Of a stretch of DNA of 64,000 bases, positions 13,028 through 47,321 are shown one piece after another. Made by a program: the position numbers and the translations under genes. How positions within the stretch are numbered: the stretch's first letter is position 1; every line of letters begins with the position of its first letter. Below the pieces are notes generated by a model. The model saw only the letters and a program-made list of their open reading frames with translations, was not told where the DNA came from and did no database searches. The stretch comes from Sinorhizobium garamanticum (GTDB lineage Bacteria > Pseudomonadota > Alphaproteobacteria > Rhizobiales > Rhizobiaceae): positions 62,001 through 126,000 of the forward strand of contig NZ_CP120375.1 in NCBI RefSeq assembly GCF_029892065.1, given 5' to 3'.

Positions 13028-13075
13028 CGCAGTTGACGTTCGAGATTCCACCTCGCCGCGAGGGCGGGGTCCATA

Positions 13076-14882: not shown

Positions 14883-14969
14883 ATCGGTGTCCTCCTCATC
14901 TCATTTGCGGATCATTGTTGTTGAGCATGCATCGACGCCGCAGCGATCGAAGCCGACCTGAACGAAGAC

Positions 14970-21653: not shown

Positions 21654-21656
21654 AGG

Positions 21657-22682: not shown

Positions 22683-22869
22683 TGAAGTTTCTCTTTCTCA
22701 GTTAGATGTGTGATCATTCCGGACATTCACTTCAGCAGGTCGCGAGGCCCTGCCGAAGTGAGGTTTGATGCCCATTACCGCTTCGTAAGCTTGAGTTTAC
22801 GGCGAACTTCCTCCGGACCGATGATCCTGGCACCCATGTTTTCGACGATGTTGGCAGCCCGCTCGACCA
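21660..22869 (-). repeat. 1,210-bp inverted duplication, copy 2
   Basis: Reverse complement of 3960-5169 with three base differences seen. Recombination between the copies would invert the 16.5-kb segment 5170-21659. Confidence 0.9.
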
Positions 22870-23485: not shown

Positions 23486-23500
23486 GGCACTGCCCTTCCC

Positions 23501-24682: not shown

Positions 24683-24753
24683 GGTAATCTCCTCTATTGT
24701 CCTGCGAAGCCGGCAGACTACCGGCTCCAGTTTTTCGGAAAAGACGGCCGGGC

Positions 24754-25383: not shown

Positions 25384-25403
25384 GCCTCCCTCCTCCCGCT
25401 CCC

Positions 25404-26141: not shown

Positions 26142-26238
26142 CGCCGGACGCGTGGCAAACGCAATCCATCCGGACCGGCTCGCAGAACACGCCGCGATGG
26201 CTTGACGCTAGTTCGGCGAGGACTTCCCTATTGGCGAC

Positions 26239-27569: not shown

Positions 27570-27600
27570 GAGGAGCTACCTTCGTCACGTGCTTGATGTC

Positions 27601-28581: not shown

Positions 28582-28611
28582 GTCGACCTCAATTTGAGTT
28601 ATGCTGTACGA

Positions 28612-29394: not shown

Positions 29395-29433
29395 AAGCCG
29401 TTCCTCTCAAGTTGTTATGTAGACTGATTGATA

Positions 29434-30237: not shown

Positions 30238-30428
30238 CGGCTTTCCTTAAGCGCCGCCCGAGTTTAGCTTCAGCATGCGATGCCGTCGTATATCTTTCAC
30301 ATTAGCACCCATCATTTACCCGGGAAGAAAGTTTATTGAATGGATGAATTCAATTTCCGAATGAATACTAGAAGTCCACAGCAGCGCTCTGAGTCAGACC
30401 CGAGCGCCGCAATCCCAGGCGCCTCGAC
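30238..30428. promoter_or_regulatory. Intergenic region before the transporter genes
   Basis: 190 bases with AT-rich patches (AGTTTATTGAATGGATGAATTC near 30330-30350), between the BKACE stop and the ATPase start. It could hold a separate promoter for the transporter genes. No defined site was fixed. Confidence 0.35.
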
Positions 30429-31331
30429 CTAGTGGGCGCGATCAAGTCCGAGTTTCTGCCTGGTATCCGCAGCATTCATCACGCTGCCGCCCATGCCACG
30501 AATGAGACCGACTGCGCGCTCCACAAGCGTGTCATTGTCAGCGAAGACTCCCTTTTCCAGGTAAAGGTTATCTTCAAGGCCCACGCGAACGTTGCCGCCT
30601 TGGCCCGCAGCAAGCGAAACGAAGCGCAACTCATCCCGCCCGATCGCAAAAGCGCTCCAGACAGAACCAGTCGGAGCCAGCTGCTTGAATGCATCAAGAA
30701 TGAACGGCTCGGCGGGCGCTCCTCCTGGGATCCCGAGGCAGAATTGGATGAGGGGCGCACCGTCTAGGAGACCTTCCGCAGACATTTTCTGTACAAACGC
30801 CAAGTGGCCCAACTCGAACACTTCCAATTCCGGCTTGATCCCGAGTGACCGAATGTGCTGTGCCATTGGTCGCAGGTAAGTCGCAGGGGCGAGATAGACG
30901 AGATCGCCGTCGCCGAAATTCATGGAGCCACAATCGAGAGTGCAGATTTCGGGCTTGAGCCGTGGATCGCGGCAGAGTCGATCCAAATGTTGAAGCCGCC
31001 CTCGCGGGCCGAGGAGATCCGTTCCTGCCCCGGCCGGCTGGGTTTCTGGTGTATCAGTTAATATCAAATCGCCAGCCATTCCGCAGCTGACGTTGATGAT
31101 TACGTCCGTGTCGCTGTCCCGTATCAGCGAGACAATCTCGGTAAACAGTTCCGGATCCCTGCTCTGTTGGCCGGTCTTCGGATCACGAGCGTGGAGGTGG
31201 ACGATGGCAGCCCCTGCTTTCGCAGCTGAGATGGCAGCATCGGCAATCTCTTTGGGAGTGACAGGTATCCTTGGATGACGCGAAACGGTGTCTGCGCCGC
31301 CAGTTACCGCGCAAGTGATGAAAGTACCCAT
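30429..31331 (-). CDS. BKACE, 3-dehydrocarnitine cleavage enzyme type, full length
   Basis: 300 residues. FITCAVTGGADTVSRHPRIP, VTPKEIADAAISAAKAGAAI and the zinc ligands in VHLHARDPKTGQ, then PEICTLDCGSMNFGDGD, AFAIGRDELRF and GGNVRVGLEDNLYLEKGVFA. The family condenses a beta-keto acid with acetyl-CoA; with 3-dehydrocarnitine it would give betainyl-CoA and acetoacetate. As the other two BKACE pieces in the window are broken, this is the only one likely to work. It is probably the first gene of the transporter-catabolism run. Confidence 0.88.
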   Translation of the reverse strand: MGTFITCAVTGGADTVSRHPRIPVTPKEIADAAISAAKAGAAIVHLHARDPKTGQQSRDPELFTEIVSLIRDSDTDVIINVSCGMAGDLILTDTPETQPAGAGTDLLGPRGRLQHLDRLCRDPRLKPEICTLDCGSMNFGDGDLVYLAPATYLRPMAQHIRSLGIKPELEVFELGHLAFVQKMSAEGLLDGAPLIQFCLGIPGGAPAEPFILDAFKQLAPTGSVWSAFAIGRDELRFVSLAAGQGGNVRVGLEDNLYLEKGVFADNDTLVERAVGLIRGMGGSVMNAADTRQKLGLDRAH

Positions 31332-31657
31332 TTTGAATCCTCAATTGATCAGAGGCGGCTCTGCTAATGAGCCCCAGAAGGTGAGACGACAGACCTCTAC
31401 CTACACTCGCTCACCACCGCCCCTCAAACGGTGCTGTCCATGAACCGAACTATGGCCCGCAGGTCGCATACATACAAATTAACGCTTCTTATTTGTTCAT
31501 TTACAAAATGCATAAATGGTATTTGTGTGAAATAGGGCGCTCCAGAAAAAATATGCTGCCGGACCCGACGGTTACGGCGGCAGAAATAGCCCTTGGGGCG
31601 GGGAGGAAATGCGGACTCTGGGCGGTTCGCGGTTGATCTTTGTCTCTTTAACTCTCC
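31332..31657. promoter_or_regulatory. AT-rich upstream region of the carnitine locus
   Basis: No gene. Bases ~31470-31550 are markedly AT-rich (TTATTTGTTCATTTACAAAA and TGCATAAATG) and are the best candidate promoter for BKACE and downstream genes. Confidence 0.4.
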
Positions 31658-32031
31658 TCACGGCGTTGACTCAGCTGCTCCTCTGATCCCATCCAGCAAC
31701 GCAGTGGTTTGACGCGTCTGAACGTAGAACATCACGCTCACCACCTCCACCGTGGCATGCACGTTCCCCATGAGATAACACATTTTGATGTTTGAAAGTG
31801 AGCACCGTCCTGCCCACTTTGCCGGCGCTCGATTCGTCAGCAGACCGCCTGATTTGACCTCCTCCTTGAACTCGACAACCATGCCGGACATCCGCCCAAC
31901 CAAGGTGATCCGCCGCGAGTTGATCGACGCCTGCCCCAAACAGCCAAGGAAGCGCAAAGACGCGTCATCGAATAAACCGGTATAAAACCGGACATTCACC
32001 CATCCAGGAACCGCGAACCGCTTTCAGCGTT
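31658..32031 (-). pseudogene. Betainyl-CoA thioesterase-like gene with lost active site and start
   Basis: Related to 14454-14882: VNVRFYTGLFDDASLRFLG, GMVVEFKEEVKSGGLLTN and NVHATVEVVSVMFYVQTRQT. The initiator ATG appears as ACG before NIETLKAV. A deletion removes most of the HPWQCDAMGH segment that holds the catalytic Asp and shifts the frame, leaving MNVRFY to follow a scrambled KRFAVPGW. It lies directly after the 3-hydroxybutyrate dehydrogenase gene, as in the intact pair. Confidence 0.68.
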
Positions 32032-32097
32032 TCAATGTTCGTGGCTCCCAAAAACTTGAAGTTTCAGATCTACGTCGCAAGCGTTTCCAGCGGTCGC

Positions 32098-32901
32098 TTA
32101 AGCGCTAATGCCGCCGTCAACCGGCAACGCAATACCTGTAATAGATCGTGCGCTCTCGGTGCAAAGGAAAAGCATCGCAGAAGCGACTTCCGTCGGATCG
32201 ACGAAACGCTTGGTCGGCATTTCGTTGAGAAAGTGCTCTTTAGTGGTTTGCTCTATCGACAGGCCGAGACCAGCCGCCTTTGCTTCAACTTGGGCCGCCG
32301 CGAGCGGAGTATAGACCCAGCCGGGGCAGATCGCATTGCAGGTAATGCCAAGCTCAGCACCTTCGAGCGCTACCGTCCGGGTCAAACCGAGCACCCCGTG
32401 TTTTGCAGCCACATAGGCAGTTTTGCCAACTTCACCAGCAAGTGCGAGAGTTGACGCGGTGTTGACGATCCGCCCCCATCCCTTACGCTTCATTCCAGGG
32501 AAGACAGCCTTGATCGCGTGGAATGCAGCCCCAAGGTTCACCGCAAGTAGGCGATCCCATTGTTCTGCGGGAAAATCTTCAACGCCGCTTACAAACTGGA
32601 CACCGGCATTGTTGATCAGGATGTCGACATGCCCAAGCTGCTCGAGAGCGGCTTCGACAAGTGCGCCTCCTTGGCGCGCATCTGATAAGTCGTGATCAAA
32701 ATGAAAAGCCTTCTGGCCGCTAAGCGCGGCAAGCTCGGTTACGAACTTGTCGACTACGTTCATCTCACCCAAGCCATGGATTGCGACTTGTGCGCCGGCC
32801 TTTGCAAACGTCCTGGCGATGTCCTGACCCATTCCGGTCGTCGACCCGGTGATCAAAGCCTTTTTACCCGCAAGCGATACATTGAGATCAACGACACCCA
32901 T
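32098..32901 (-). CDS. 3-hydroxybutyrate dehydrogenase-like SDR, second copy
   Basis: 267 residues from ATG 32901 (MGVVDLNVSLAGKKALITG); the upstream ATG at 32943 adds residues not found in the family. Motifs: TGSTTGMGQDIA, NNAGVQFV, TASTLALAGEVGKTAYVAAK, CPGWVYTPLA, HFLNEMPTKRFV. Strongly similar to 14970-15770. It would reduce or re-oxidise acetoacetate from carnitine breakdown. Divergent from the LysR gene; the shared intergenic region holds a LysR box. Confidence 0.87.
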   Translation of the reverse strand: MGVVDLNVSLAGKKALITGSTTGMGQDIARTFAKAGAQVAIHGLGEMNVVDKFVTELAALSGQKAFHFDHDLSDARQGGALVEAALEQLGHVDILINNAGVQFVSGVEDFPAEQWDRLLAVNLGAAFHAIKAVFPGMKRKGWGRIVNTASTLALAGEVGKTAYVAAKHGVLGLTRTVALEGAELGITCNAICPGWVYTPLAAAQVEAKAAGLGLSIEQTTKEHFLNEMPTKRFVDPTEVASAMLFLCTESARSITGIALPVDGGISA

Positions 32902-32957
32902 CTTTGTGCTCCGCAAATGACTTCGAAGGCCCAACGCTATCAAAGCGCTTCTTCCAA

Positions 32958-32983: not shown

Positions 32984-33874
32984 ATGCACAACATGAATAT
33001 ATGGACGGCGGAAATGGACATTGCGCTTCTCAGAACGTTCTCTACGGTTGCCACACTAGGTAGCTTTTCCGGTGCTGCCCAGCGCCTCAATATGACCCAG
33101 TCCACCGTCAGCCAGCAGATCGCACGTCTCGAAGAACATCTGGGAAAGCAGCTTTTTGTTCGAACAACGCGAAACTGCCGTCTGACTCACAGCGGCGACG
33201 AGCTTTTGGAACGAGCGAGCAAGGTAGTCGCTCTCGTTGATGAGATGGAGAGTGCTTTTCGGCCGGAGCTAAGTAGCGGAACAGTCGTTGTCGGGGTGGT
33301 CGATGATTCATATCTTTTCGCTCCCCTCACGCGAGCTCTCGCAGAGTTTGTAGAACGACGGCCTACCGTCAGTATCGAGATCAGAGCTGGTATGTCTGCA
33401 GACCTTTTACGCGAATTGAAGGCACGCAACATTGAACTTGCCCTCCTTCGTGTAGACCCCGAGACAGAGCGGGATGGCCTTTTGCAAACCAGCAAACTGG
33501 TATGGATTTCAGCGCCAGCTTGGCAGGTTCCTAAGAACGGGGTCATCCCACTTGCTGTCGTTGGCGGCACATGCAACTACCACAAGACGGCACTCGAAAC
33601 ATTGCGACGGGCCGGTCTTCAATCAAGGCGTGTCGTTACCTGTAGCAGTCTCGAAGGTGTGCTCGAAGTGGTGCGCGCAGGCTTAGCTGTTTCCGTAGTT
33701 CCGGAGGGTGAACTGCGCGCTGGTATGGAAATCGTGAGTGATCATCGGCTTCCTGTACTTCCTCATACAGGTCTCAAGATAAGTTTCAGCGACCAGGAGC
33801 CATCGGTCGCGGCCAAACAGTTGGCCAGAGTCATCGAGACTACCCTTCAGAACAAGGTTCTACCGAGACAATAA
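32984..33874 (+). CDS. LysR-family transcriptional regulator of the carnitine locus
   Basis: 296 residues. The HTH reads DIALLRTFSTVATLGSFSGA, AQRLNMTQSTVSQQIARLEE and LGKQLFVRTTR, followed by a LysR substrate-binding domain (TVVVGVVDDSYLFAPL, LEGVLEVVRAGLAVSVVPEG). ATG 33014 (MDIALLRTF) is an attractive alternative start, since family members usually begin close to that motif. Divergent from the dehydrogenase and immediately beside the dyad, it likely activates the minus-strand locus in response to a carnitine metabolite (inference). Confidence 0.88.
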   Translation: MHNMNIWTAEMDIALLRTFSTVATLGSFSGAAQRLNMTQSTVSQQIARLEEHLGKQLFVRTTRNCRLTHSGDELLERASKVVALVDEMESAFRPELSSGTVVVGVVDDSYLFAPLTRALAEFVERRPTVSIEIRAGMSADLLRELKARNIELALLRVDPETERDGLLQTSKLVWISAPAWQVPKNGVIPLAVVGGTCNYHKTALETLRRAGLQSRRVVTCSSLEGVLEVVRAGLAVSVVPEGELRAGMEIVSDHRLPVLPHTGLKISFSDQEPSVAAKQLARVIETTLQNKVLPRQ

Positions 33875-33911: not shown

Positions 33912-35120
33912 CTAAGAGGAAGCGATAAGATCTGCGACCGCGCCGGCCGTCGCCATAGAAAGTGTCCAACCGAGCGATCCATGGCCACAATTGAGATAGA
34001 GGCCTTTGATCTTGGTGTCGCCCACTAGCGGTTTGCTGTTCGGCGTTACTGGACGAAAACCCGTCCATGGGTTGAGATCGCCCTCGTAATTTCCTGCTTT
34101 TGGGAAGATGCCCCGCGCAGTCGCGAGCAGCGTCCGGAACCGTTCCTCTTTAAATTGCGAATTTGACGGGCCAATATCCGCAAGCCCTGCAACACGCAGC
34201 CGATCGCCTATGCGGCAAAATACCGTCTTCCGCGCGGTGTCCGTGATGCTGGCTCTTGGCGCGGCATCTAACGCCGGTACTGTGAGAGAATAGCCTTGGA
34301 CCGGCCATATCGGTAATTTGATGCCAGCCGCTTTTGCGATCGAAGGAGCACAAGCACCCAAACAGATTACAGCGCGCGAGCACTGAATTTCCTCTTTCGC
34401 TGTTGCGATCGCACCCAACTGATTGCCTCGGCGCTTCACATCCTCAATCTTTGTATTGAACAAAAATTGCACGCCGTAGTCGCGCTCAAGTAGCACTCGA
34501 AGGCTCTTACTGAAGAGGTTTGAGTCGCCTGCGTCGTCATGCGGCGACCAAATGGCGCCCACAAATGTGTGGCCGTAATGGGCTAAGGCCGGCTCTCTCT
34601 CCAATGCTTGTTCCCGCGTCAGAACCACCTGTTCCGCGCCGTACCGGTTTTTGAGTTTACTCAAGTCTTGCGCCTTACGAAGACTATCTTCATTCGCGAA
34701 AAGCGTAATTTTCCCGCTTTTCGAGTAATCAAAATTTAGCTTCGATGAGAGCTCGGCAATCCCAGGGCGACTGCGGAGTGCAAGCTCTAAGATTTCGGTG
34801 GTATTTCGCTCGAAGGCCCTTTGAGTCGAATTAGCGAGGAACTTCAGCCCCCAGGCTAAGAAAGCCGGCGAGAGGGACAGAGACACCCTGAAAGCCGGGT
34901 CGAGTCCGAGAAGGTATTTGTGTATATTCATCGCCAGCGAGGGGGAGGCCATCGCATCGGTATAAAAGTAACTTAACTGAGCGCCGTTGCCGAAGCTCGC
35001 GCCGGCCTCAGCAGGGCCTGAACCAGCATCGACGACAGATACGTCGAGTCCTCTTTTTGCTAGCGCGTAGGCGGTTGTCATGCCGACAACGCCCGCTCCA
35101 AGGACGAGAATGCGGTTCAT
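33912..35120 (-). CDS. dadA: D-amino acid dehydrogenase-like FAD oxidoreductase
   Basis: 402 residues, DAO family: N-terminal FAD motif ILVLGAGVVGMTTAYALAKRG (split by GxGxxG), GNGAQLSYFYTDAMA, C-terminal NPWTGFRPVTPNSKPLVGDT and LNCGHGSLGWTLSMATAGAV. It oxidises D-amino acids to 2-imino acids and passes electrons to the membrane chain. It overlaps the RidA gene by four bases (ATGA). RidA hydrolyses imines, so the two probably act in sequence. It is the last gene of the four-gene operon. Confidence 0.88.
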   Translation of the reverse strand: MNRILVLGAGVVGMTTAYALAKRGLDVSVVDAGSGPAEAGASFGNGAQLSYFYTDAMASPSLAMNIHKYLLGLDPAFRVSLSLSPAFLAWGLKFLANSTQRAFERNTTEILELALRSRPGIAELSSKLNFDYSKSGKITLFANEDSLRKAQDLSKLKNRYGAEQVVLTREQALEREPALAHYGHTFVGAIWSPHDDAGDSNLFSKSLRVLLERDYGVQFLFNTKIEDVKRRGNQLGAIATAKEEIQCSRAVICLGACAPSIAKAAGIKLPIWPVQGYSLTVPALDAAPRASITDTARKTVFCRIGDRLRVAGLADIGPSNSQFKEERFRTLLATARGIFPKAGNYEGDLNPWTGFRPVTPNSKPLVGDTKIKGLYLNCGHGSLGWTLSMATAGAVADLIASS

Positions 35121-35593
35121 TGGACATCCCGAAGACGAGCGATAACTTCTATTTCGACCGGAACGCCACGCGGCAATGCGGCAACGCCGATCGCGAACCG
35201 TGAGTGCGTGCCGCGCTCACCAAAGACTTCCACGAACAGGTCTGAGGCGCCGTTGATGACAGCAGAGATGTTTGTGAAATCTGCTGTGCAGCTTACGAAG
35301 CCGCAAACCTTAATAAGCTCGTCAATGAGTGAGAGGTCTTGATTTGTCGCCATCGACAGCTGACTAATGACGTTGAGGGCGGCTAACTTTGCCGCTTCAT
35401 AAGCCGTTTCTTGGGACACAGTATCACCTACTCGGCCGAAGTATTTGGCGACACCATCCTCTAGTGGCAATTGACCAGATACATAGACCAGTCCGCGGTC
35501 AATTTTGTATCCTAGAAGGTTACCCGCTGGCTTAGAAATCTTTGGCAACGCCAGGGTTAGCGCGGTTAGCCGCTCTTCAGGTGTGTGAGTCAT
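35117..35593 (-). CDS. RidA/YjgF-type imine deaminase
   Basis: 158 residues. Family features: YKIDRGLVYVSGQLPLEDG, GDTVSQETAYEAAKLAALNV, GFVSCTADFTNISAVINGAS and HSRFAIGVAALPRGVPVEIE, with the Arg that binds imine carboxylates (SRFAIG). It would hydrolyse the imine made by the DadA-like enzyme. It sits three bases after the glutamine-amidotransferase-like gene and is coupled to dadA. Confidence 0.88.
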   Translation of the reverse strand: MTHTPEERLTALTLALPKISKPAGNLLGYKIDRGLVYVSGQLPLEDGVAKYFGRVGDTVSQETAYEAAKLAALNVISQLSMATNQDLSLIDELIKVCGFVSCTADFTNISAVINGASDLFVEVFGERGTHSRFAIGVAALPRGVPVEIEVIARLRDVQ

Positions 35594-35596: not shown

Positions 35597-36316
35597 CTAC
35601 TTCTTCCGTTCCGAGTAATCGAGGGCCTTTGCTATAAACCCCGCGAAGATGATCTTATCGATATCAGCGACGCCGTATTCCGGGTGCCATTGCACGCCTA
35701 CCGCGAAACTATGGTTCTTTGCTTCAATTGCCTCGACAACACCGTCGGGCGATAGAGCGAGTGTCTGGTAGGCCTCATTTGGCAGGACCGACTGATGATG
35801 TACGCTGTTCACTCGGTGGATGTCGCCGTCCAAGGTCGCGAAGTGGAGCGAGTCACTACGGATTTCGATTTCATGATGGGGCAGTGATGCCGATTGCTCA
35901 GGCTTATGCTCGAGCGCACCGTCGACTTCTGTGGGAATATCTTGGACCAATTCCCCCCCGAGGCAGACAGCAAGAAGCTGCATTCCATTGCAGATCCCCA
36001 GGATCGGCATCGATCGCGATAGCGCACCCTTAATCAAGGCGCGCTCAAAGTCCGTTCGTGCGGGCTTCATCACGTATTGCTTTCGAGCCGTCTGGCGATA
36101 TAAGACCGGGTTGATGTCGAACACGCCACCTGTAACCAGCAGTCCATCCACTGCTTCCAGGTACTCATCAACCTGCTCCCCATAAGGCAGGATAAACGGA
36201 AGACCTCCGGCATTCGTCACAGCGTCGGCATAATTTCGCCGAACGACGTATTCGGTTTCGGGAGCGGCGAGATCATTCACATCCGGCGTAATGCCGATGC
36301 GGGGTAAGGAGCGCAT
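35597..36316 (-). CDS. Class I glutamine-amidotransferase-like hydrolase (gamma-glutamyl-GABA hydrolase type)
   Basis: 239 residues, peptidase C26. Nucleophile Cys in MPILGICNGMQLLAV, His and Glu in VGVQWHPEYGV, and the DGLLVTGG loop. It is similar to PuuD, which hydrolyses gamma-glutamyl-gamma-aminobutyrate. With an M20 deacylase upstream and D-amino-acid enzymes downstream, it probably frees an amino compound from a gamma-glutamyl conjugate. Exact substrate unknown. Confidence 0.85.
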   Translation of the reverse strand: MRSLPRIGITPDVNDLAAPETEYVVRRNYADAVTNAGGLPFILPYGEQVDEYLEAVDGLLVTGGVFDINPVLYRQTARKQYVMKPARTDFERALIKGALSRSMPILGICNGMQLLAVCLGGELVQDIPTEVDGALEHKPEQSASLPHHEIEIRSDSLHFATLDGDIHRVNSVHHQSVLPNEAYQTLALSPDGVVEAIEAKNHSFAVGVQWHPEYGVADIDKIIFAGFIAKALDYSERKK

Positions 36317-36325: not shown

Positions 36326-37483
36326 TTATGACAGCCACGCGCGAGTGACATCCTGATAGATGTCGACGGCCTTGAGTACGTTCTCGATTGACACAAATTC
36401 GTCCGGTTGGCCGCTAAGCCCCAAGGAGCCGGGGCCAATGATCGCGAACGGTACGGAAAGACCCTCTAAAAGGACTGTGCCATCGCTGTAGTAGGACACT
36501 CCCTTGATCTCTGGTGTCTGATTCCGATGTCGAGCACAGACGTCGACACATAGTTCGACGAAAGCGTCTTCTCGCTTGCTTTCCACTGCAGGTTTGAAGT
36601 CCAGGACTGTGATGTTAACGCCAGTGGGAGCCAATTTCTCCACCTTCGCAACGATCTCTTTGTGATCAACTCCCGGATGGAGCCGAATATCGAAATCAAC
36701 CGCACAATGATCCGGGGTCACATTGACGGCTGAGCCGCCCTGTATTCGACCCACACGCACTGTCGGTGCATCGAGCAAAGCATGTTCAGGGCAGTCTAGG
36801 TCCAACGCGGTCAGGCTGGTCAGAAATTCATGGATCAAGTCGATCGCATTCACGCCGGCCTCGCCCGATACGTGGCCGAGCCTACCCGTCGCCGTTGCCC
36901 TCAACCAAAGTGCTGCCTTTTCCACGATCACCACGTCGAGATCGCTCGGCTCTCCGCAAAGGAACGCGCCTATCTCTTTCTTAAGTCCCCGTTCAGCGAA
37001 CCGGCGCGCTCCTAGGAGGTTAGCACTCTCCCCCGCGGTAAAGGCTAAGATAACGTCACCCCGTAATTTAATACTGGGCTCTGCAGCTAATTTGCCCGCC
37101 GCTGCAATCATTGCCGCAAGCGCGCTCTTCATGTCGCTCGCGCCCCGGCCATAAAGACGGCCGTTCTCCACCTCGCCGGAGAAGGGCCATCTCTGCCACG
37201 GAACAGTCCCAACTGGCACGGTGTCCATGTGAGAAGAGAGCACGAGCGCAGCCTTCTCTCCTGTTCCTCGGATTCGGCCTAAAACATTCCCGCGCCCCGG
37301 AAGAAACTCGTCGAGTTCGGACTCGATACCGAGCGCAAGCAACTCTCTATGCACTAAGCGAGCGATCTCGATTTCTCCGCCCGGCGGATCACAACTGTCG
37401 ATTGCAACAATTTGCTGAAGGAAACGGATTGGCTCGAAGTGATGCTTACCTTTGGTCGCCGCTCGAGCATCAATAGTCGCCAT
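36326..37483 (-). CDS. M20-family metallohydrolase (ArgE/DapE type)
   Basis: 385 residues from ATG 37483, preceded by AGAGGA at a proper distance; ATG 37498 lies on the same SD and is less likely. Zinc-binding motifs: SSHMDTVP, GRGASDMKSALAAM and AGESANLLGARRF; the dimerisation lid is central. It removes an acyl or similar group from an amino acid or dipeptide nitrogen. It is the first gene of the operon M20 - C26 hydrolase - RidA - DadA. Beyond a 190-base gap lies the PKS gene, also minus strand. Confidence 0.85.
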   Translation of the reverse strand: MATIDARAATKGKHHFEPIRFLQQIVAIDSCDPPGGEIEIARLVHRELLALGIESELDEFLPGRGNVLGRIRGTGEKAALVLSSHMDTVPVGTVPWQRWPFSGEVENGRLYGRGASDMKSALAAMIAAAGKLAAEPSIKLRGDVILAFTAGESANLLGARRFAERGLKKEIGAFLCGEPSDLDVVIVEKAALWLRATATGRLGHVSGEAGVNAIDLIHEFLTSLTALDLDCPEHALLDAPTVRVGRIQGGSAVNVTPDHCAVDFDIRLHPGVDHKEIVAKVEKLAPTGVNITVLDFKPAVESKREDAFVELCVDVCARHRNQTPEIKGVSYYSDGTVLLEGLSVPFAIIGPGSLGLSGQPDEFVSIENVLKAVDIYQDVTRAWLS

Positions 37484-37690
37484 AGGAAATCCTCTCATTT
37501 TTTTACGAGAATGGCGGCTTCGTCACCTCAACAGAAGCGCAAAAGCTCAATGGATTGATCCGCAAAATTTATGAATAGCCCCAAACATGGGACGACGCGG
37601 CAATATCAAGTGTATGGGTGGTATAATGCACCAACTCAGATGGTTCAGGATACCCGAGCAGGCGTTATCAAGGCGGCGGATCGAACGACC

Positions 37691-40600
37691 TTACTCGAGA
37701 GACAGAAACTCACAGCCGAGTTTATCGATAGCGGGACGACGAATCATTGAGAAGTGGTCACCATTGACCCACAATAGATCAACGTCGAGCATATCTTTCA
37801 CTCCAGCCGCAGATTGAATCGCGCCCAAATTTTTCAAAAACAGGTCGTTTGTTATGCCGGTGACATTATCCTGTGTAGGTAGGACGAGTGTTACAGGAGA
37901 ATAGATTGGTGCATAGATTTGAGCGGTGTCAGCGATGCGGCAATTTTGATCGAAGACCCGCTTCAGTTTGCCTAACACCGCGCCATGTGCTCTCGATGTC
38001 CTTGACCGTGGCGGCACGGGCGTACCTCGGCTCATGTGTACGAGCCGATCAAAATCGTTGTCATCCAACCGAGCAGTATGATAGGGAGACAGTGCCGGTG
38101 CTAACAGCCCATCGATGGCAACAATCCGCTCTATTTCCCGACCGCGGCGTCCGAACTCTACCGCGAGGGAATATACTAGCATTGCTCCGAACGAATGACC
38201 TACAAGTCTGAGAGGCCCATCCGTTTGTTCATGTTCGATTGCGTCAGCCATCTGGCGGGCGACCGCCACAACGTCATCAACATTACCGCTTTCGGGCGCA
38301 CTCAGCCCGATCACGTCCATGTAGTCCTTAACAGACTGACGCAGTCCAACTTCTCCACCAACTTGACCGAGAATTCCCTCAATGAAAAAGATCTTTGGGC
38401 GGGATTGTTTGATCGTGCCAGGAGCCGGAGAGTCTGTCGTCACAACACGGGAATTAGCCTCGCTCACAACCGCAGCGAAGCGCCGTTCGATCTCGTCAAG
38501 GCTGAGGCCCTCGGAGATCGAACTCAGCGGTATATGTGTATTGGTCAATTCTTGTAACGCCAAACGGAGTTCGATCAGCTGAAAAGAGTCTAAACCATTA
38601 TCGGTTAAGGAACCATTCAAATCCAGCGATTTCGAATCTACACCGAGCACCTCCGCCACCTTCGTCAACACTGGCCTATCCATTCGCCCGTCCGGAATGC
38701 CGGTGCCTTTCGGTGCAGAGGTAGTGCTGCTAGGGGGCTTAACCCCTTTCATTACGCAGACCGGCCTTTCCCTTACGTCGCGCAATACAACATACGATTT
38801 GCCGTCGTCACATGCTGAGACAGTTCCGGGACCCGCAGAACCTCCCAAGTCGAGCAAGCGGATTGAGTCAATGTTTGCCGCGAGAAGCGTCGTTGCCTGC
38901 TCTTGAGCGCTCTGTACATAAGTCATCGCCTGCAGCATCGCATTCAGTGCTGTGATCAATCCGGTTAGTCCGGTGGCGTCTGGAAGCGGGCATAGCCTAG
39001 CATGAAGTGCATTCTCGGCACGCCAACTAGTTTCAATGCGCTTGTACTCGGGTCCATATTCCATCCCCTGAGACGCAAAGTGCGCGTAAAGCGCTTCCGA
39101 GGAGACTGACTCACCACCACCAGCAAAAGGCTTAAGATCATCGGGGCGGTCGGCGAAGAAACCTACCACGGCCGTAGCATTACGCCTCCAAGCCGCCTTT
39201 CTCCCTGTAGACCGAGAATAAAGAGCCACCTGGGGTCGCTCTCCACGCTCCAACTGAATGCCAATTTGACAGGTACTTTTTGCCGCGTCCAGAACGATGG
39301 GAGCTTCAAAAACAACGTTATCTAACCGTATGGTAGTTGTATGGTCTGAGCTGGGAAGAAAATCAAAGATCATCGCCAGCACTCCGGCCGTGGGGACCAC
39401 ATATATACCATTTACCTGATGCCCCTTCAGCCAATCGACGTATTGCGCCGATATCTCGAAAACCGTGCTCTTGCTGATGCTAGCGTCCCCGAAGAAAGGC
39501 AGTGAGATCCCACTTTGTCCAGCGACCTGCATGCCGAATACCTTACTGGCAATTTCATGTCGGCTGAACCGATAGGTCGGCATCGGCACCAGCGAACCAG
39601 CCCCCGTTTTGTTGAGCTTGTTCCACGGTATGGCATAACCTGCCGCAAATAGATCAGCTATCTTTTCAGCGACTGGATGCTCCGTACGGCTGATTCCCGA
39701 GATCACACCCAATTCATCTTGGCATTTGCAGGCGGCCGTCGACCGCGCAAAAGTGCTAAGCACTTGCCCTAGCCCAAGTTCAAAAAAAACCGGTTCCGCC
39801 ACGCGATCCAAGACGCGCTCCAAAGCTGATTTGAAGTCGACGCAGGATCGCATTTGTTCGGCCCAGTATTCTAATGTGAATGGCTCGAACTGCTGCGTCG
39901 GGCAGGTAGAGAATATTGGAATTTTCGGGCTTCTGGGTTGCAGAGTTGGACCATATTCACGTAACGCTCGCGCTGCCGGTGCCATAATCTCAGTGTGAAA
40001 GGCATTCGCGACCTCGAGGCGGTGGTGCCTCAATCCGTTTTCCTCACAATACTTCTCCAGAACTTCGTAGGCAGTGTCCGGACCTCCGACGACCGCTCGA
40101 TCAGGGCAGTTCTTGCACGCAACTTCTAGCCCGAACTCTTGCAGTGGAGCCTGCAATGACTCTGCATCGGCGTCCACCTGGCACATAAAGCCTTTTCCGG
40201 GCACCCGTTCCATTTCTACCGAGCGGACGACGATTAGATCTAGTGCCTCGTCCAGAGTCAGTACACTAGCAGACACCGCTGCGGCGATCTCACCGACGCT
40301 ATGCCCAACTAGAGCTACGGGTTGAAATCCAAATGACAGCCACAAAGCGCTGAGTGAAAGCTCGACAGCAAAGACCAAGGCCTGATCATGAATAGTACCG
40401 CGCTCGTTAGAACACAAATGACTATAGTCCGCTTTCCCAAGGAACGCGCCAATCTTCTCAGTAAAAAGACAATCGCCCAAGCGGAACCGTAATCCGTCGA
40501 GAATGTCGTTGAAGCGATCCTGAAATACTTTGAAACCATTAAGATCGGCTATACTTTCCCAATCAAATCGCATTCCCTGCCCCGGAAATGTCCAGACAAG

Positions 40601-40852
40601 ATTTTCCGAACTTTTTCCATAGGGAACTCTCTTAATCGGTTCGCCATAGTGAACACTATAACTACTTCTATTTTGGCAGATTACGCCTCGCGATGGGCTG
40701 AAATGGCGCCGTCCACGCGACAACGTCTCAACCAGGTCAGCCTCCCTCAAATTTACGCCAGACGAAAGGAACTCTACCAGCGCACCCGCTGTGGCCTGAA
40801 ACGCCAGAGCCGACTTTGCTGATACCGGAAGGATTTGACCTATCGGTGACAT
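37691..40852 (-). CDS. Type I PKS protein: AT-DH*-ACP-TE
   Basis: 1,053 residues. Residues 1-80 are the linker that normally joins KS to AT, so the module is split exactly after the KS of the upstream gene. AT ~87-420: FPGQGM, Ser185 in GHSVGE, His286 in NAFH, closest to malonyl-type. DH-like ~450-700: His478 in HQVNGIYVVP, but Asn637 replaces the usual catalytic Asp (TALNAMLQ), so dehydration is doubtful. ACP ~727-795: Ser756 in DNGLDSFQL. TE ~819-1053: Ser887 in GHSFGA, Asp914, His1033 in NGDHF. No KR or ER is present. It starts one base after the NRPS-PKS stop. Confidence 0.92.
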   Translation of the reverse strand: MSPIGQILPVSAKSALAFQATAGALVEFLSSGVNLREADLVETLSRGRRHFSPSRGVICQNRSSYSVHYGEPIKRVPYGKSSENLVWTFPGQGMRFDWESIADLNGFKVFQDRFNDILDGLRFRLGDCLFTEKIGAFLGKADYSHLCSNERGTIHDQALVFAVELSLSALWLSFGFQPVALVGHSVGEIAAAVSASVLTLDEALDLIVVRSVEMERVPGKGFMCQVDADAESLQAPLQEFGLEVACKNCPDRAVVGGPDTAYEVLEKYCEENGLRHHRLEVANAFHTEIMAPAARALREYGPTLQPRSPKIPIFSTCPTQQFEPFTLEYWAEQMRSCVDFKSALERVLDRVAEPVFFELGLGQVLSTFARSTAACKCQDELGVISGISRTEHPVAEKIADLFAAGYAIPWNKLNKTGAGSLVPMPTYRFSRHEIASKVFGMQVAGQSGISLPFFGDASISKSTVFEISAQYVDWLKGHQVNGIYVVPTAGVLAMIFDFLPSSDHTTTIRLDNVVFEAPIVLDAAKSTCQIGIQLERGERPQVALYSRSTGRKAAWRRNATAVVGFFADRPDDLKPFAGGGESVSSEALYAHFASQGMEYGPEYKRIETSWRAENALHARLCPLPDATGLTGLITALNAMLQAMTYVQSAQEQATTLLAANIDSIRLLDLGGSAGPGTVSACDDGKSYVVLRDVRERPVCVMKGVKPPSSTTSAPKGTGIPDGRMDRPVLTKVAEVLGVDSKSLDLNGSLTDNGLDSFQLIELRLALQELTNTHIPLSSISEGLSLDEIERRFAAVVSEANSRVVTTDSPAPGTIKQSRPKIFFIEGILGQVGGEVGLRQSVKDYMDVIGLSAPESGNVDDVVAVARQMADAIEHEQTDGPLRLVGHSFGAMLVYSLAVEFGRRGREIERIVAIDGLLAPALSPYHTARLDDNDFDRLVHMSRGTPVPPRSRTSRAHGAVLGKLKRVFDQNCRIADTAQIYAPIYSPVTLVLPTQDNVTGITNDLFLKNLGAIQSAAGVKDMLDVDLLWVNGDHFSMIRRPAIDKLGCEFLSLE

Positions 40853-40853
40853 A

Positions 40854-43800
40854 TCAGCGTCTCCTTTGATCTTCTACCCGTTGCAAGACTATATGGGAAT
40901 TTGTGCCCCCCATTCCGAAGGCGCTCACACCACCAAACAGCGAATTAGAAATAGCAAGCGGCTCCGATTGGCTCGTCACTTGCATGTTTTCATTCGGGGA
41001 TAACCGCGGATTCAGTTCTTGGAAATGGCAGGTTCCTGGAAAGACAGAGTGATGCAAACTCAAGCAAGCCTTGATGAACCCAGCCACGCCCGCGGCTTCA
41101 TCAAGATGGCCGAGGTTGCCCTTAACAGAGCCGACCAAGCACGGTGAATTCCGTTTGGATTTCTTGAGACTCTGCTCAATCGAACTCCATTCAATAGCGT
41201 CTCCAACAACCGTACCAGTCCCGTGCGCTTCGACAAAAGCCAACGCATCGGGTCCCAAGTTGGCGCTACGCAATGCCTGAGTGATTACCTCAGCTTGCCC
41301 CATAGGGCTTGGCGCGGCAAAGTTCATCCTACGATCACCATCGTGGTTGATGGCGCCGCCGACAATGTTTGCGTAAACTGTATTGCCGTCACTTATAGAA
41401 TCTTTATTCCTTTTAAGTACAACGAGGCCCCCACCGTTACTAAACACAGTTCCATCTGCTGCAGCATCGAAGGGGCGACAAACACCGTGCGGGCTCCGGA
41501 CAGATCCTTCAACATAGTCGTAACCTATAGGCTGAGGCCAAATCACCGAAATGCCGCCAGCCAGTGCAATATCGCATTCATCGTCTAGCAGCGCCTTTCT
41601 GGCATAATGAATTGCCGCAAGGGAGGTGGCACACGCCGCCTGGATCACGATGCTAGGGCCGGTGAGGCCAAGACGGTAAGAAACCGTCGAGGTCAAGTAG
41701 TTTCGGTCGTTGCCAAGACGTTCCTGTAGCGTGTTGTCCTCGCGAAAACAGACATTGGTCGTGCTCTTGCGCAAGGGCTCAAGTTCATTAATTAAATATG
41801 TGCTCAAACCGGCACCTGCGAAGAGCCCGACGCGAGTATCATTCCCAAAGTTCGCATCACCGGAATGCTCAAGCGCAGACCAACATAACTCGAGGAAAAT
41901 CCGTATCTGCGGATCCATTCTATAGGCTTCTGCCGGAGAGAGCCCGAAGAACTCGTAATCAAACGAATTCACGTTCTCAAGTCGGCCGAAGCTTGGAACA
42001 AAGAAGTTGCGTCCTTCCTCCAATTCCTTTTCGGCTGCGGAATCATCATCCCTTGTGATTAGGCAGTGCCCGCTCGCCAGGTTCTCCCACAACGCCTCCG
42101 TCGAGACCGCCCCTGGGAAACGACAAGCCATTCCAACAACGCTGACATGCTCGTAACGCCCCGCGAACCGCGCAGGAGGAAGCGCATCATGGTTCGCTGG
42201 GATCTTTGCGCTCTTAAAGTGATTCTCCAAGGAGGCAACCGTAGGAAAGCGATAAAAGTCAGCCACTGTCAGACCTGGAAAAGTTCCCGATAGCTCCACC
42301 TCAAGCGCAATTAGCCCCAAAGAATCGAAACCAATATCGCTGAACCGACTATTCGGTGTGAACTTTGCGTCGGGTGCGAGCTTGCGAATCGCCCCGGCTA
42401 CCTTCATGTTATGAAGTGTAGCTTCCCCGACTAAGGTGGACGAAGAGAAGTCACCAATCTCTATCTCAGCAGCGCGACGTTCGAGTGAGGGATAGTCTAT
42501 CTTCCCGTTTTTTAGTCGCGGTAACTCAGGCAAGTTAAGGACTCGGCACCGAAATTGGCGCCCGAGTTTGGAGATGATGTAATCGACTAAATCCTCTGGC
42601 CGGAGCGCCGGATAGTTTGGCTCAGCCGAAAAAAAGGCTATGGGCTCTTGCCCAATGGTCGTCGAACGCGGCGAGATCGCAGCAGCGTCAGCAATGTCTT
42701 CTCTCTGACGGAGTACTGATTCTACGGCACCTAAGGAAATCCGGTTGCCACGCACTTTAACTATTCTATCGCTGCGCCCCACCAAATAGATATTGCCGTC
42801 CTCGTGTATAAAACCGACATCGCCCGTCACCATCGGAGCTGAGAATCCGTCCGTTGAGTCAATCGGAAACTGAACCGCGAGACTGCCAACCATGCCCGCC
42901 GGAAGCGGCTCGTTTCGGGAGCCCTGTACAGAGACTTTGGTTCCGGCGATCGGTCGCCCGACCGGCGGGTGGGCTGGCCACGCATTGGGCTGACTTCCTA
43001 GCAAATGCGCCGTTATGTCTTGGGTTTCTGACATACCGTAATGATTGAGAAGCATCGCACCCGTAGTAGCAAACCAGCGCTTGATATTCTCACTTATCTC
43101 CAACGGCGCACCTGCGACAATCACCATCCGCAGGTCTCGACAAGGAAGGTTCTGTTCCAATGCTGCCCTAGCCACTCCTTCCAACAAAACGGTTGGGAGG
43201 TATATCCTATCCAACTCCATTCTATTCAAGAAAGACGCTAGCTCGGTAGCGCTCCGCCTCAATTTCGACTCTGCGAACACAAGTGTTCGCCCCCCGGCCA
43301 GTGTTGCATAGATCTCGTGATATGCCACATCGTGCATAAGCGACGACAGTTGGCCCATCCGACGTGCCTGAGGTAGACACTCCAGATGCCATTTCACTAA
43401 TCGGTCCAACTGTGCAGCAGGAAACCGAATTGCTTTTGGATTTCCGGTGGATCCCGAAGTCATGACTACATATGCGTCAAGCTGTGGGGCCGCAGACTGT
43501 GGCTGCTCTTGTGCCCCGACTAGGAGACGAAAACCTGCGACCGGTGTTTCGCAAGGCGCAAATCCTCTTGGCAAATTAGATCTTTGGAAAACCTCTTCCG
43601 TGACTAGAATTGCGCTGACACTCGTCTGCTCCAATTGTTCTGGATGCAAATGGCTGTCCCCTTCATCCATCCGAAGAAAACACCCACCTGCCATGTTCAC
43701 TCCAATGAGCGCCGCGATTTCCTTTGGCTCGCGCGGACCGGCATACGCGATCGTTGGATTGACAGCCACTCGCGCTTTTATATGCTCTGCCAGTTCGTCA

Positions 43801-45248
43801 GCAATGCATACGATAAAGGAATAAGAATAGCTGGTGCCTTGGCCGTCGAGGATTGCCTCACGTTCGGGGTTGTCTTTGGCTTGCTGACGCAGTGCGTTTA
43901 GAAAAAAAGGCGGCGCATTGATGCTGGGTTTAACGAACTCATCGACACCTTTCGGGCGGGCTTCCGATCGCGGCATTTGCAATAGGTACGTTTTGATTCG
44001 CCGAGCCAAGTAATCAATAGAACTTTGGTTTATCAGACCATTGGCGGATTCCAACCGGCAGATCAGTCGGTCCGACGCATCGAACCAAAAATTGATGACC
44101 AAAAGATATGGGGTGGGCGATGGTGCTGGTTCGAACACACGCATTACCGACGCGCTGCAAAAACTAAAGATCTTACGTCGCACTAAGAGAATATCGAACA
44201 GATTTTCAGTCCGACGCAATTCCGCGAATACTGTCGAGGCGGCAATATCTTGATAGGGAACGCGAGCAATCCGAGCTGCTAGCGCCGCCTGTGCTCTTGC
44301 CCATTCAGGAACTTTACCGACATTGTCCAAAGAGCCATATTCCGTTGATGGTGGCACCAAAGCCAGTCCAGGATTCCCGAAATAGCCGAATTCCGCGCAG
44401 CCGTCCGGGACACAATCATGGGGTATCGCTACGATAATCTGTTCATCGTCTAGCAAATTTGCGGTTGCGAATTGGAGCGCACCTAACAGAACTGCTTCGG
44501 TTTCGGCTCGGTGCCAAAATTGCTCATCTGGTGCGATGTCGAGCTCGCTAACGGTTGGTCGAATGTCTCCTACAAGGCGGAATCGTCCGCGCAGATCACC
44601 TAAATCAACAATGTCCTCTGCTAGACGTGCCACAGCTTCCCAGTCGCCTTCCGTCGCGGGGGTAGCAGAGAACCGGTCGACAAACGATGCTCGGCCGTTT
44701 TCCAACTTCATCTGATCGGACAGACTTTCTAGGAATAGAAGTAACGACCGGTCTCCATCGCAGATGACATGGTGAAACAGACAGAACAAATAGGTCTTAC
44801 CTTGGCACTGAACAAGTTGCATCCGCCAAGGGTAGTGCGAAACTAAATGGGAAGGCAGACTTATAAAGTCTTGATAGCACGTGGTAAGTTGCTGCATGGA
44901 TGCGCAGTTTATCTCGGGCAGAACAGCCTCTTTCAGGCACTCTGCGCCCGTCTGATGGATCCAGGAATAGTGCCCGTTGCGGCGAACAAGTTGCGTATTC
45001 AGTAACGTGTGGCGACGCAAAATGGATGTCAGCCGTTCCTGCAGTTGTCGCGTTGACATGTGAGCCGCCAATTCGACTGCACAGCATATGTTGAGATCCT
45101 TCCGCCGCGGATCCATCGCATCCAGAAAGCACATTCGTTCCTGCGACGAGTTCAATAGATATTCAGTGCCTTCTTGTTTCACTTTGCTTATCCCAATGAG
45201 GCTGCAGATAAATGCTTGACCAACGAAGCCGCTTTCAAATTGGCACAT
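40854..45248 (-). CDS. Hybrid NRPS-PKS: C-A-PCP-KS
   Basis: 1,464 residues. Condensation domain ~28-430 with HHVICDG (159-165). Adenylation ~450-925: SGSTGNPKA (598-606), HDVAYHE with the Asp that binds the alpha-amino group, NHYGMSET (735-742), TGDVGF, GRSDRIVKVRG, and Lys916 in NGKIDY. PCP Ser976 in GFDSLGL. Ketosynthase ~1034-1458: Cys1206 in ACATS, His1342 in EAHGTGT, His1381 in KGNLGHLDEAAG. All key residues are present. The first ~22 residues are unusual, and GTG 45182 is an alternative start. It would load an amino acid, N-acylate it (N-terminal C domain) and extend it with the AT-ACP partner. Confidence 0.92.
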   Translation of the reverse strand: MCQFESGFVGQAFICSLIGISKVKQEGTEYLLNSSQERMCFLDAMDPRRKDLNICCAVELAAHMSTRQLQERLTSILRRHTLLNTQLVRRNGHYSWIHQTGAECLKEAVLPEINCASMQQLTTCYQDFISLPSHLVSHYPWRMQLVQCQGKTYLFCLFHHVICDGDRSLLLFLESLSDQMKLENGRASFVDRFSATPATEGDWEAVARLAEDIVDLGDLRGRFRLVGDIRPTVSELDIAPDEQFWHRAETEAVLLGALQFATANLLDDEQIIVAIPHDCVPDGCAEFGYFGNPGLALVPPSTEYGSLDNVGKVPEWARAQAALAARIARVPYQDIAASTVFAELRRTENLFDILLVRRKIFSFCSASVMRVFEPAPSPTPYLLVINFWFDASDRLICRLESANGLINQSSIDYLARRIKTYLLQMPRSEARPKGVDEFVKPSINAPPFFLNALRQQAKDNPEREAILDGQGTSYSYSFIVCIADELAEHIKARVAVNPTIAYAGPREPKEIAALIGVNMAGGCFLRMDEGDSHLHPEQLEQTSVSAILVTEEVFQRSNLPRGFAPCETPVAGFRLLVGAQEQPQSAAPQLDAYVVMTSGSTGNPKAIRFPAAQLDRLVKWHLECLPQARRMGQLSSLMHDVAYHEIYATLAGGRTLVFAESKLRRSATELASFLNRMELDRIYLPTVLLEGVARAALEQNLPCRDLRMVIVAGAPLEISENIKRWFATTGAMLLNHYGMSETQDITAHLLGSQPNAWPAHPPVGRPIAGTKVSVQGSRNEPLPAGMVGSLAVQFPIDSTDGFSAPMVTGDVGFIHEDGNIYLVGRSDRIVKVRGNRISLGAVESVLRQREDIADAAAISPRSTTIGQEPIAFFSAEPNYPALRPEDLVDYIISKLGRQFRCRVLNLPELPRLKNGKIDYPSLERRAAEIEIGDFSSSTLVGEATLHNMKVAGAIRKLAPDAKFTPNSRFSDIGFDSLGLIALEVELSGTFPGLTVADFYRFPTVASLENHFKSAKIPANHDALPPARFAGRYEHVSVVGMACRFPGAVSTEALWENLASGHCLITRDDDSAAEKELEEGRNFFVPSFGRLENVNSFDYEFFGLSPAEAYRMDPQIRIFLELCWSALEHSGDANFGNDTRVGLFAGAGLSTYLINELEPLRKSTTNVCFREDNTLQERLGNDRNYLTSTVSYRLGLTGPSIVIQAACATSLAAIHYARKALLDDECDIALAGGISVIWPQPIGYDYVEGSVRSPHGVCRPFDAAADGTVFSNGGGLVVLKRNKDSISDGNTVYANIVGGAINHDGDRRMNFAAPSPMGQAEVITQALRSANLGPDALAFVEAHGTGTVVGDAIEWSSIEQSLKKSKRNSPCLVGSVKGNLGHLDEAAGVAGFIKACLSLHHSVFPGTCHFQELNPRLSPNENMQVTSQSEPLAISNSLFGGVSAFGMGGTNSHIVLQRVEDQRRR

Positions 45249-45295
45249 GGCCTAAGTTTTGGCGCGAGTTCCAACGAAGTCCCCGGGCCTCGTCT

Positions 45296-45682
45296 TCAAT
45301 AACTCGAGGCGGACTCGCCACAGAGAACATGACGCTCAGTGCCCTTGAGCGGCGGGTTGAAAATGCTGACGAGAACAAGGTCCTCGTTCCTACCTCCACG
45401 CAAAAAATGCCTGTCATGCTTGTCGAGCACGTATATGACACCTTTGCGAATTGGAAAAACGTTGCCGTGCATGTCCTCGACCTCTCCCGAGCCTCCAATG
45501 CAATAGCATGCCTCCAGGTGGTTTCGGTATTGAAGCAGAGAGACGGTCTCGGCACGTACTACTGTGTGACAGACGGAAAAGCCCATTCGGTCTCTTTCTG
45601 TCAGTAGCCGATGGCTTGTACCACTACCCCACTCAACGAAGTGGTCGCTGACTTCAACATCTTGCAGACTGCGTACAAACAT
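45296..45682 (-). CDS. Ectoine-synthase-like cupin (EctC family), orphan
   Basis: 128 residues, full EctC length. Starts [11 protein letters not shown] like EctC, with CGGAGAGC-type SD upstream. Core: [48 protein letters not shown] and SIFNPPLKG. The iron ligands of characterised EctC (Glu in NHLEA, Tyr in IYVLDK, last His of KHDRH) are all kept. EctC closes N-gamma-acetyl-diaminobutyrate to ectoine, but no ectA, ectB or ask is here. It lies 47 bases before the NRPS-PKS gene on the same strand, so it may cyclise a precursor or tailor the product of that assembly line. Confidence 0.85.
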
Positions 45683-45856
45683 GATGCTCTCCGAATAAGA
45701 AAGACTCGACGTATTGGCGATACAATTTCTCGCTTGGTTAACTGACCAGCACTATCGTTCCACCTGCCTGAGTCATACTTCAGGATCATACTTCCGTGGT
45801 TGAACCGCTTAAGTCGCGAGTCCTGCATAAAGTGTGCCCACTCCGCTAATCGGTCC

Positions 45857-45874
45857 ACTGCCAGATCAGGTAGT
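45857..45874. promoter_or_regulatory. Lux-box-like dyad upstream of ectC
   Basis: ACTGCCAGATCAGGTAGT pairs at seven of nine positions across its centre. The left half (CTGCCAGAT) matches the common lux/las-box half-site. It lies 175 bases before the ectC ATG and is the only such dyad I saw there. A LuxR-type receptor gene is 2.5 kb away. Binding is inferred. Confidence 0.4.
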
Positions 45875-45889
45875 TTGTAGAGTGGCACA

Positions 45890-47321
<1,432 letters not shown>

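Follow-up and report, generated by a model that had tools for sequence, protein, structure and literature searches.

An EctC gene before a split NRPS-PKS line

The window analysed here, a 64,000-nucleotide stretch of Sinorhizobium garamanticum DNA (contig NZ_CP120375.1, positions 62,001 to 126,000), contains a gene for an EctC-type cyclase directly upstream of two genes that encode a hybrid non-ribosomal peptide synthetase-polyketide synthase (NRPS-PKS) assembly line (Table 1), and this work concerns the relation between the two. The contig, C3 (623 kb) of a three-contig genome of 6.83 Mb, holds nodA (478802) and nifH (420914) and is thus a symbiotic plasmid. A sequence-only reading of the locus had described an EctC gene without its usual partners in a row with a C-A-PCP-KS and an AT-DH-ACP-TE gene, the latter with a defective DH. 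Open reading frames (ORFs), Pfam matches, and gaps of 47 bases between the EctC and NRPS-KS genes and 1 base between the NRPS-KS and PKS genes all confirm this arrangement.

The EctC protein belongs to the family of ectoine synthases (Pfam Ectoine_synth, PF06339, 124.6 bits with a cut-off of 27; NCBIfam 'ectoine synthase', NF009806, 155.6 bits with a cut-off of 128) and, as had been claimed, has all iron ligands, namely Glu57, Tyr84, and His92 in the numbering of PMC6344544, from whose accessible text the residue roles are also taken. It also retains Arg25, Thr40, and Tyr52, and it has Trp at 18 rather than 21, Cys at the place of Asn38, and Ser at the place of Cys104. No EctA or EctB match was found in the window. 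The stated lack of ectA and ectB extends to the own genome, where EctA gave no match at E ≤ 0.001 and EctB nothing over the model cut-off (best 369 of 552 bits). The genome encodes a second EctC, 80% identical, on the chromosome next to a divergent LysR gene. The window EctC resembles the EctC of ectABC operons in fold, iron ligands, and most substrate residues, but differs from it by the missing ectA and ectB, the shifted Trp, an ExCYC motif, a short C-terminus ending in Tyr, and its placement in a separate clade. It belongs to the orphan (solitary) EctC proteins, among which it stands out by its link to an assembly line, and this link hints at a possible function for the group.

In the NRPS-KS gene, Pfam lists condensation (C), AMP-binding (adenylation, A), PP-binding (peptidyl carrier protein, PCP), and N- and C-terminal ketosynthase (KS) domains; in the PKS gene it lists a CurL-like linker, acyltransferase (AT), dehydratase (DH, two partial matches), PP-binding (acyl carrier protein, ACP), and thioesterase (TE). 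The module is therefore split between KS and AT linker, just as had been read by the sequence-only analysis. Judged against consensus motifs, KS, AT (GHSVGE, NAFH), the Ser of both carriers, TE (GHSFG), and C (HHxxxDG) look intact, so that the line has C, A, PCP, KS, AT, ACP, and TE with the active-site residues of a type I hybrid NRPS-PKS. We take the AT motif NAFH to suggest malonyl specificity. A functional DH, which this class does not require, is lacking: HxxxGxxxxP is kept in three of the four orthologues, and the catalytic Asp is absent from all four in an alignment judged by eye against the consensus motif. No ketoreductase (KR) or enoylreductase (ER) is among the Pfam matches of the two genes, and the domain content supports the earlier proposal of a single, non-reducing extension. 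The same reading had called the C domain a starter, an assignment that is tentative, as its only match among solved structures, CmnI, is weak (E 0.015). The NRPS start is uncertain as well, since annotation places that of the relatives in S. meliloti USDA1021 and R. gallicum M101 some 22 codons downstream.

Table 1. Features of the locus and of the third EctC-linked family (window coordinates unless a stretch is named)
Feature	Location	Strand	Description and basis
Orphan EctC-type cupin cyclase	45296..45682	-	128 aa; PF06339, NF009806; iron ligands; orphan signature
C-A-PCP-KS hybrid NRPS-PKS subunit	40854..45248	-	1464 aa; Pfam; A code DVHYIAHDIK; HHxxxDG intact
AT-DH-ACP-TE subunit (DH degenerate)	37691..40852	-	1053 aa; Pfam; alignment of 4 orthologues
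M20 metallopeptidase (ArgE/DapE family), first cassette gene	36326..37498	-	Pfam
Peptidase C26 / gamma-glutamyl hydrolase family protein	35597..36316	-	Pfam
RidA-family protein	35117..35593	-	Pfam
FAD-dependent amino acid oxidoreductase (DadA-like)	33912..35120	-	Pfam DAO
LysR-type regulator, possibly of the cassette	32984..33874	+	by eye; divergent from cassette
Third family (NRPS genes preceded by EctC at 0.5-3 kb)	L182 3814-9724 (G452); L134 10001-20384 (P. sabiae); L142 8146-12320 (G117)

Related assembly lines and their linkage to EctC

The PKS was matched over at least 80% of its length in two of 72,556 plasmid records, those of R. gallicum M101 and S. meliloti USDA1021, and a third orthologous line, in Mesorhizobium sp. 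LSJC280B00, came from a contig scan of the genome collection with two peptide patterns, which detects close relatives only. At E ≤ 1e-60 the line occurs in one of 394 family genomes, the window's own, and no further full-length match was present among 33 genomes of the genus. All four orthologous lines carry the identical A-domain code DVHYIAHDIK. In Mesorhizobium, EctC precedes the NRPS by 0.8 kb on the same strand; identity to the window is 72% for the NRPS, 61% for the PKS, and only 48% for EctC. In R. gallicum M101, where the NRPS and PKS reading frames are broken, EctC is encoded on the opposite strand, beyond the M20 gene and some 2.2 kb away from the PKS. USDA1021 has the NRPS-KS, AT-TE, M20, C26, RidA, and DAO genes in the same order as the window, and its EctC adjoins an ATP-grasp-type gene. 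Homology to the window there spans EctC and the whole spacer to the NRPS start, and is followed by an IS3 element and then by an N-terminal remnant of the NRPS. Since the spacer and the broken NRPS start remain behind EctC, the two genes were once adjacent in USDA1021. Thus, the expectation that EctC would stand beside homologous NRPS-PKS genes in other strains fails for the present arrangement in USDA1021 and M101 and is upheld for the past one in USDA1021.

A second family consists of single genes of the order A-PCP-KS-AT-ACP-TE (domain content tested on the G026 gene), found in genomes G024, G026, G028, G019, and G032, with a sixth member in R. gallicum IE4872. The first five came from a set of eleven stretches, chosen by ORF size from a larger number of PKS matches, which together span ten PKS regions of the genus, including one on the plasmid of the window. 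A search with a protein of this family across 394 genomes of the bacterial family, 347 of the order, and the plasmids gave matches of at least 63% identity from G024, G032, and R. gallicum IE4872. The A domains of the second family are only 25-29% identical to those of the window type in global alignment (some 35% over the best local match), and their codes read DVHYTANDVK, DIHYTANDVK, or DIHYTSNDVK. All 24 pairs between the second family and the four window-type lines agree at 5-7 of the 10 code positions (four at 5, twelve at 6, and eight at 7), as compared with control pairs (n=255, 20-42% identity), among which 8 reach 5 and 2 reach 6, the latter both within the showdomycin-like set described below. 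In the pair formed by the window and G026, agreement at 7 of 10 positions has a chance probability of 0.008.

Over the two families together, an orphan-type EctC is on the same replicon or contig in nine of ten loci and within 7 kb in eight. In the tenth, G019, a contig break falls 0.6 kb before the gene, and an EctC (44% identity) is on another contig. In the second family, EctC lies upstream on the same strand, at about 20 bp in G024 and G026, at 21 or 117 bp in IE4872 depending on the choice of start codon, at 3.0 kb in G028, and at 6.2 kb in G032. None of the other five PKS regions, which have different codes and served as controls, has EctC directly upstream on the same strand. Genomes G016 and G011 gave no EctC match at E ≤ 1e-15.

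Among the 394 family genomes, 60 hold 65 EctC matches at E ≤ 1e-20, and the surroundings were read for 45 of these (40 loci fetched, five from other retrievals). All 14 fetched loci at 38-44% identity sit 9-56 bp behind ectB and are thus ectABC operons. Among 50 aligned EctCs, each of 38 orphans (stand-alone, NRPS-linked, and showdomycin-like) has the motifs WGxGxS and ExCYC as well as a C-terminal Tyr, a combination found in none of 11 ectABC EctCs nor in that of L069. The tree of these 50 sequences separates orphan from ectABC EctCs with support of 100/100; L069 falls on the ectABC side, and the window EctC does not group with the ectABC proteins. The Mesorhizobium EctC falls with those of G024, G026, and IE4872 in one clade, and those of the other window-type lines fall in a mostly stand-alone clade, so that, on well-supported branches, the EctCs paired with the window-type line imply two changes or more. 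Pairing of EctC and assembly line by chance is unlikely, and the coupling of the two is well supported by the recurrent linkage, the USDA1021 spacer, the two EctC clades, and the shared codes, in agreement with the tie that the sequence-only reading had proposed. A published census counts 145 solitary proteins among 582 EctCs and, in its accessible part, calls their function unresolved (PMC5924519).

A domains near orphan EctCs belong to several families, most of them with proline-like codes. A third family (P. sabiae, G117, and G452), found through the EctC search and not included in the linkage figure above, has DVQFYAQ(V/I)(V/I)K as the code of its first A domain. Stand-alone A domains beside EctC in B. 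stagnalis, S. globosus, S. clavuligerus, and G788 read DLL(Q/E)(I/V)T(V/L/I)DSK; all four of these sets have EctC and an acyl-CoA dehydrogenase, and a carrier protein is annotated in two. These showdomycin-like operons are found in stretches L133, L136, L137, and L185 (B. stagnalis, S. globosus, S. clavuligerus pSCL4, and one order genome), the carrier being in L133 and L136. In B. stagnalis, the operon further includes genes for a pseudouridine-phosphate glycosidase and a HAD protein, which match what a showdomycin pathway would need.

Several further neighbours of EctC were seen. In L135 (8360-12184, Agrobacterium vitis) and L159 (7631-13679, G151), EctC is divergent from an adenylate-forming enzyme and accompanied by MFS and RidA genes, with an acyl-CoA-dehydrogenase-like ORF in G151 as well (by eye). 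In the Rhizobium replicons L150 and L029, EctC stands 433 bp before a saccharopine-dehydrogenase-like gene, and ATP-grasp-type or D-Ala-D-Ala-ligase-like genes are close by. Left out of the counts were weak AMP-binding matches beside chromosomal LysR-EctC pairs, which are acyl-CoA synthetases by eye, and a 555-aa AMP-binding ORF in L153, 3.4 kb away on the other strand.

EctC as a candidate glutamine cyclase

The window code DVHYIAHDIK resembles the one aligned for TycB1 (D V Q L I A H V V), a proline-activating A domain. It differs by His and Asp where TycB1 has Gln and Val, the Asp being residue 744 of the NRPS. An extra Asp is likewise carried by all four showdomycin-like A domains beside EctC; the B. 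stagnalis code DLLQITVDSK shares D235, I299, the Asp at 330, and K517 with the window code and differs at six positions. In S. meliloti AK83, an ATP-grasp-type gene, an EctC with the orphan signature, and glnA stand in a row (L178 29220-38942, pSINME01). The unit is duplicated, with the second glnA broken, and lies about 12 kb from a copy of the M20-C26-RidA-DAO cassette. Its ATP-grasp-type gene is annotated as acetyl-CoA carboxylase biotin carboxylase subunit family and scores below all NCBIfam cut-offs shown.

For showdomycin, the accessible part of a review (PMC8724604) describes a cyclase, SdmE, which converts L-glutamine to 2-amino-1-pyrroline-5-carboxylate (ADPC), a unit then activated by SdmC and carried by SdmD. 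ADPC also arises from glutamine with H. elongata EctC, as an inefficient and reversible side product according to the available text of PMC5924519. Based on the shared proline-like codes, the recurrent EctC linkage, the showdomycin precedent, the glnA neighbour, the ADPC side product, and the lack of an EctA match, we consider it probable, with room for doubt, that the window EctC is a glutamine cyclase supplying a cyclic amidine to the A domain of the line. EctC would dehydrate and cyclise L-glutamine to the five-membered ADPC, and the A domain, with its proline-like pocket and Asp 744 facing the amidine, would activate this proline analogue and load it onto the PCP. KS and AT would then add one unit, probably malonyl, without reduction, the DH being presumably a relic, and the TE would release the beta-keto product either hydrolytically, as a beta-keto acid, or through cyclisation at the ring nitrogen, in which case a pyrrolizine-type bicycle would result. 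The N-terminal C domain, for its part, could add an acyl group to the loaded unit.

The window line thus appears to be a variant of a kind of system already known from showdomycin, in which a cyclase is proposed to work with dissociated NRPS parts. In both, a cyclase (of EctC type in our reading of SdmE) would serve an A domain and a carrier with a glutamine-derived unit; in showdomycin, as far as the accessible text describes it, this unit is oxidised and C-glycosylated, whereas in the window it would pass to the KS for malonyl extension. No match to the B. stagnalis-type acyl-CoA dehydrogenase was found in the window, and no C-glycosynthase or glycosidase gene was recognised there by eye. 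Hybrid NRPS-PKSs with a proline-type starter likewise combine one amino-acid module, one PKS module, and a TE; the window line differs from these by the split after KS, the lack of KR and ER, the degenerate DH, and the His and Asp of its code. The sequence-only reading knew of no described pathway with this gene set. This stands in so far as no tie of EctC to an NRPS-PKS was found in the titles and abstracts of the literature searched (open-licence papers, whose full texts were mostly outside the scope), and the accessible part of PMC10228743 holds nothing on orphan EctC; it does not stand for the cyclase with dissociated NRPS parts, which has been proposed for showdomycin.

Several observations weigh against the role proposed here. 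As to the linkage, the EctC of USDA1021 is not adjacent to the line now but about 26 kb away across the start of the record, G024 and G032 were picked partly because an EctC match was already known there, and two of the five control PKS regions have EctC within 11 kb (on the other strand in G015, downstream in G032), which suggests that EctC is common on these plasmids. Of the 26 fetched orphan loci (at least 53% identity), 22 have a divergent LysR gene within 225 bp, and most EctCs of the window's wider clade lie outside NRPS/PKS clusters. As to the codes, the chance for the window and G026 rises to 0.046 (5/8) without two near-universal residues, the code of the third family has no such Asp, the adenylate-forming enzymes that accompany EctC in A. 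vitis and G151 show the unlike code DYYHSSNRVK, and three TE-first PKSs, two of them from genomes without an EctC match, also have Asp at this position. Furthermore, the glnA adjacency is on one plasmid only, the G452 EctC (outside the 50-row alignment) reads EACFC in place of ExCYC, and PMC8724604 names SdmE, in its accessible part, only as a cyclase, its EctC type being suggested by the gene sets found in B. stagnalis, S. globosus, and S. clavuligerus.

Alternatively, the A domain may load glutamine itself and EctC may cyclise the carrier-bound glutaminyl thioester. This would avoid the equilibrium between free glutamine and ADPC, which favours glutamine for the H. elongata enzyme (PMC5924519, in part), and EctC does lie beside the line that would hold its substrate. 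We regard it as quite unlikely, given codes that are proline-like and unlike the glutamine code, a showdomycin scheme that places cyclisation first in the accessible text of PMC8724604, and EctCs of the same clade in many loci with no carrier seen nearby.

In a further scenario, EctC would make ectoine or a homologue from an N-acyl diamino acid that is imported or obtained by another route, and the resulting six-membered ring would be loaded by the A domain. The EctC fold and most ligand residues are kept, and a solitary EctC of P. syringae led to ectoine in an H. elongata ectC mutant, as stated in the available part of PMC5924519. However, the genome has neither an EctA match nor an EctB above cut-off, the orphan EctCs are set apart from the ectABC proteins in both tree and signature, and the showdomycin precedent and the glnA neighbour point to glutamine, which makes this scenario very unlikely. 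The earlier proposal that EctC could cyclise an N-acyl diamino acid is not supported, in view of the missing EctA match, the glnA neighbour, the proline-like codes, and, as far as PMC8724604 describes it, the cyclisation of glutamine before loading in showdomycin.

It is also improbable that EctC is a mere neighbour, a stand-alone osmolyte or stress gene moved by insertion sequence (IS) elements beside an unrelated NRPS-PKS, as its mostly LysR-associated clade, the IS110-like transposase gene (46134-47321, by eye) immediately upstream of and divergent from it, the varied arrangement of the orthologous loci, and the frequency of EctC on such plasmids could suggest, because USDA1021 keeps the same spacer and NRPS start behind EctC, two second-family loci have a spacing of about 20 bp, orthologous lines are flanked by EctCs of two clades, the EctC-linked families share the A code, and EctC is near NRPS genes of another family in P. 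sabiae and G452 too.

If EctC is a glutamine cyclase feeding adenylation domains, the locus and its relatives would offer a concrete answer for the role of orphan EctCs. An EctC beside a proline-like A domain could then guide genome mining for amidine-bearing natural products, of which rhizobial symbiosis plasmids would become a source.

Downstream cassette, regulation, and neighbouring genes

The M20 gene begins 192 bases after the PKS gene and is followed by the C26, RidA, and DAO genes, with the LysR gene divergent from them. The DAO protein scores 364 of 383 bits with the NCBIfam D-amino acid dehydrogenase subfamily and is thus below its cut-off. The LysR protein is 90% identical over 283 aa to one beside the same cassette in Mesorhizobium sp. 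LSJC280B00, where the cassette is divergent from the line. The cassette was found over at least 80% of the query in seven plasmid records, five of which have no window-type PKS over 80%, and ABC transporter genes adjoin it in three cases, S. meliloti AK83, S. fredii, and R. anhuiense; those of R. anhuiense carry an oligopeptide/dipeptide annotation. We read the four genes as a separable, probably mobile catabolic cassette. A role as tailoring enzymes was set aside, in view of these five records and of the adjoining transporters.

No good sigma-54 promoter or NifA site was found upstream of the window EctC (best 3 mismatches), and a scan of 45000-46200 for sigma-70 promoters and terminators gave nothing. 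Sites with at most 2 sigma-54 mismatches occur in three of 18 EctC upstream regions, as compared with 64 of 2000 random windows: G117, with a perfect -24/-12 match 240 bp before EctC, P. sabiae (1 mismatch), and Mesorhizobium LSJC280B00 (2 mismatches), the last with a TGT-N10-ACA some 60 bases upstream of the site. Two sites with 2 mismatches are present in G452. In B. diazoefficiens, the accessible part of PMC4926349 gives a single value of log2 -6.5 for blr2106 ('l-ectoine synthase') in Table 3 of nifA- and nifH-mutant nodules, which we read as belonging to the nifA-mutant column.

In a broader and more tentative view, rhizobial symbiosis plasmids might carry a family of glutamine-derived cyclic-amidine metabolites, which kin reclaim as a nodule currency similar to opines or rhizopines; this seems possible but doubtful. 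EctC would make the building block for ATP-grasp ligases, NRPSs, or NRPS-PKS lines, and kin would break the product down by means of the M20-C26-RidA-DAO cassette and its LysR regulator. Such an opine- or rhizopine-like role fits the blr2106 entry.

Carnitine-type catabolism genes, some in more than one copy, lie beside the cluster in the window (21144-32943 and 4147-5193). Named by eye, they comprise a carnitine-dehydrogenase-like gene, a beta-keto acid cleavage enzyme, a thioesterase, a short-chain dehydrogenase/reductase, and an amino acid ABC transporter. R. gallicum M101 has a further copy of the cassette beside carnitine-type genes, as in the window. The same plasmid as the window also bears a second NRPS-PKS gene (2356 aa, code DAFGKGSVYK) adjoining an ATP-grasp-type gene, at 6844-15376 of stretch L071 (C3:606000-623000).

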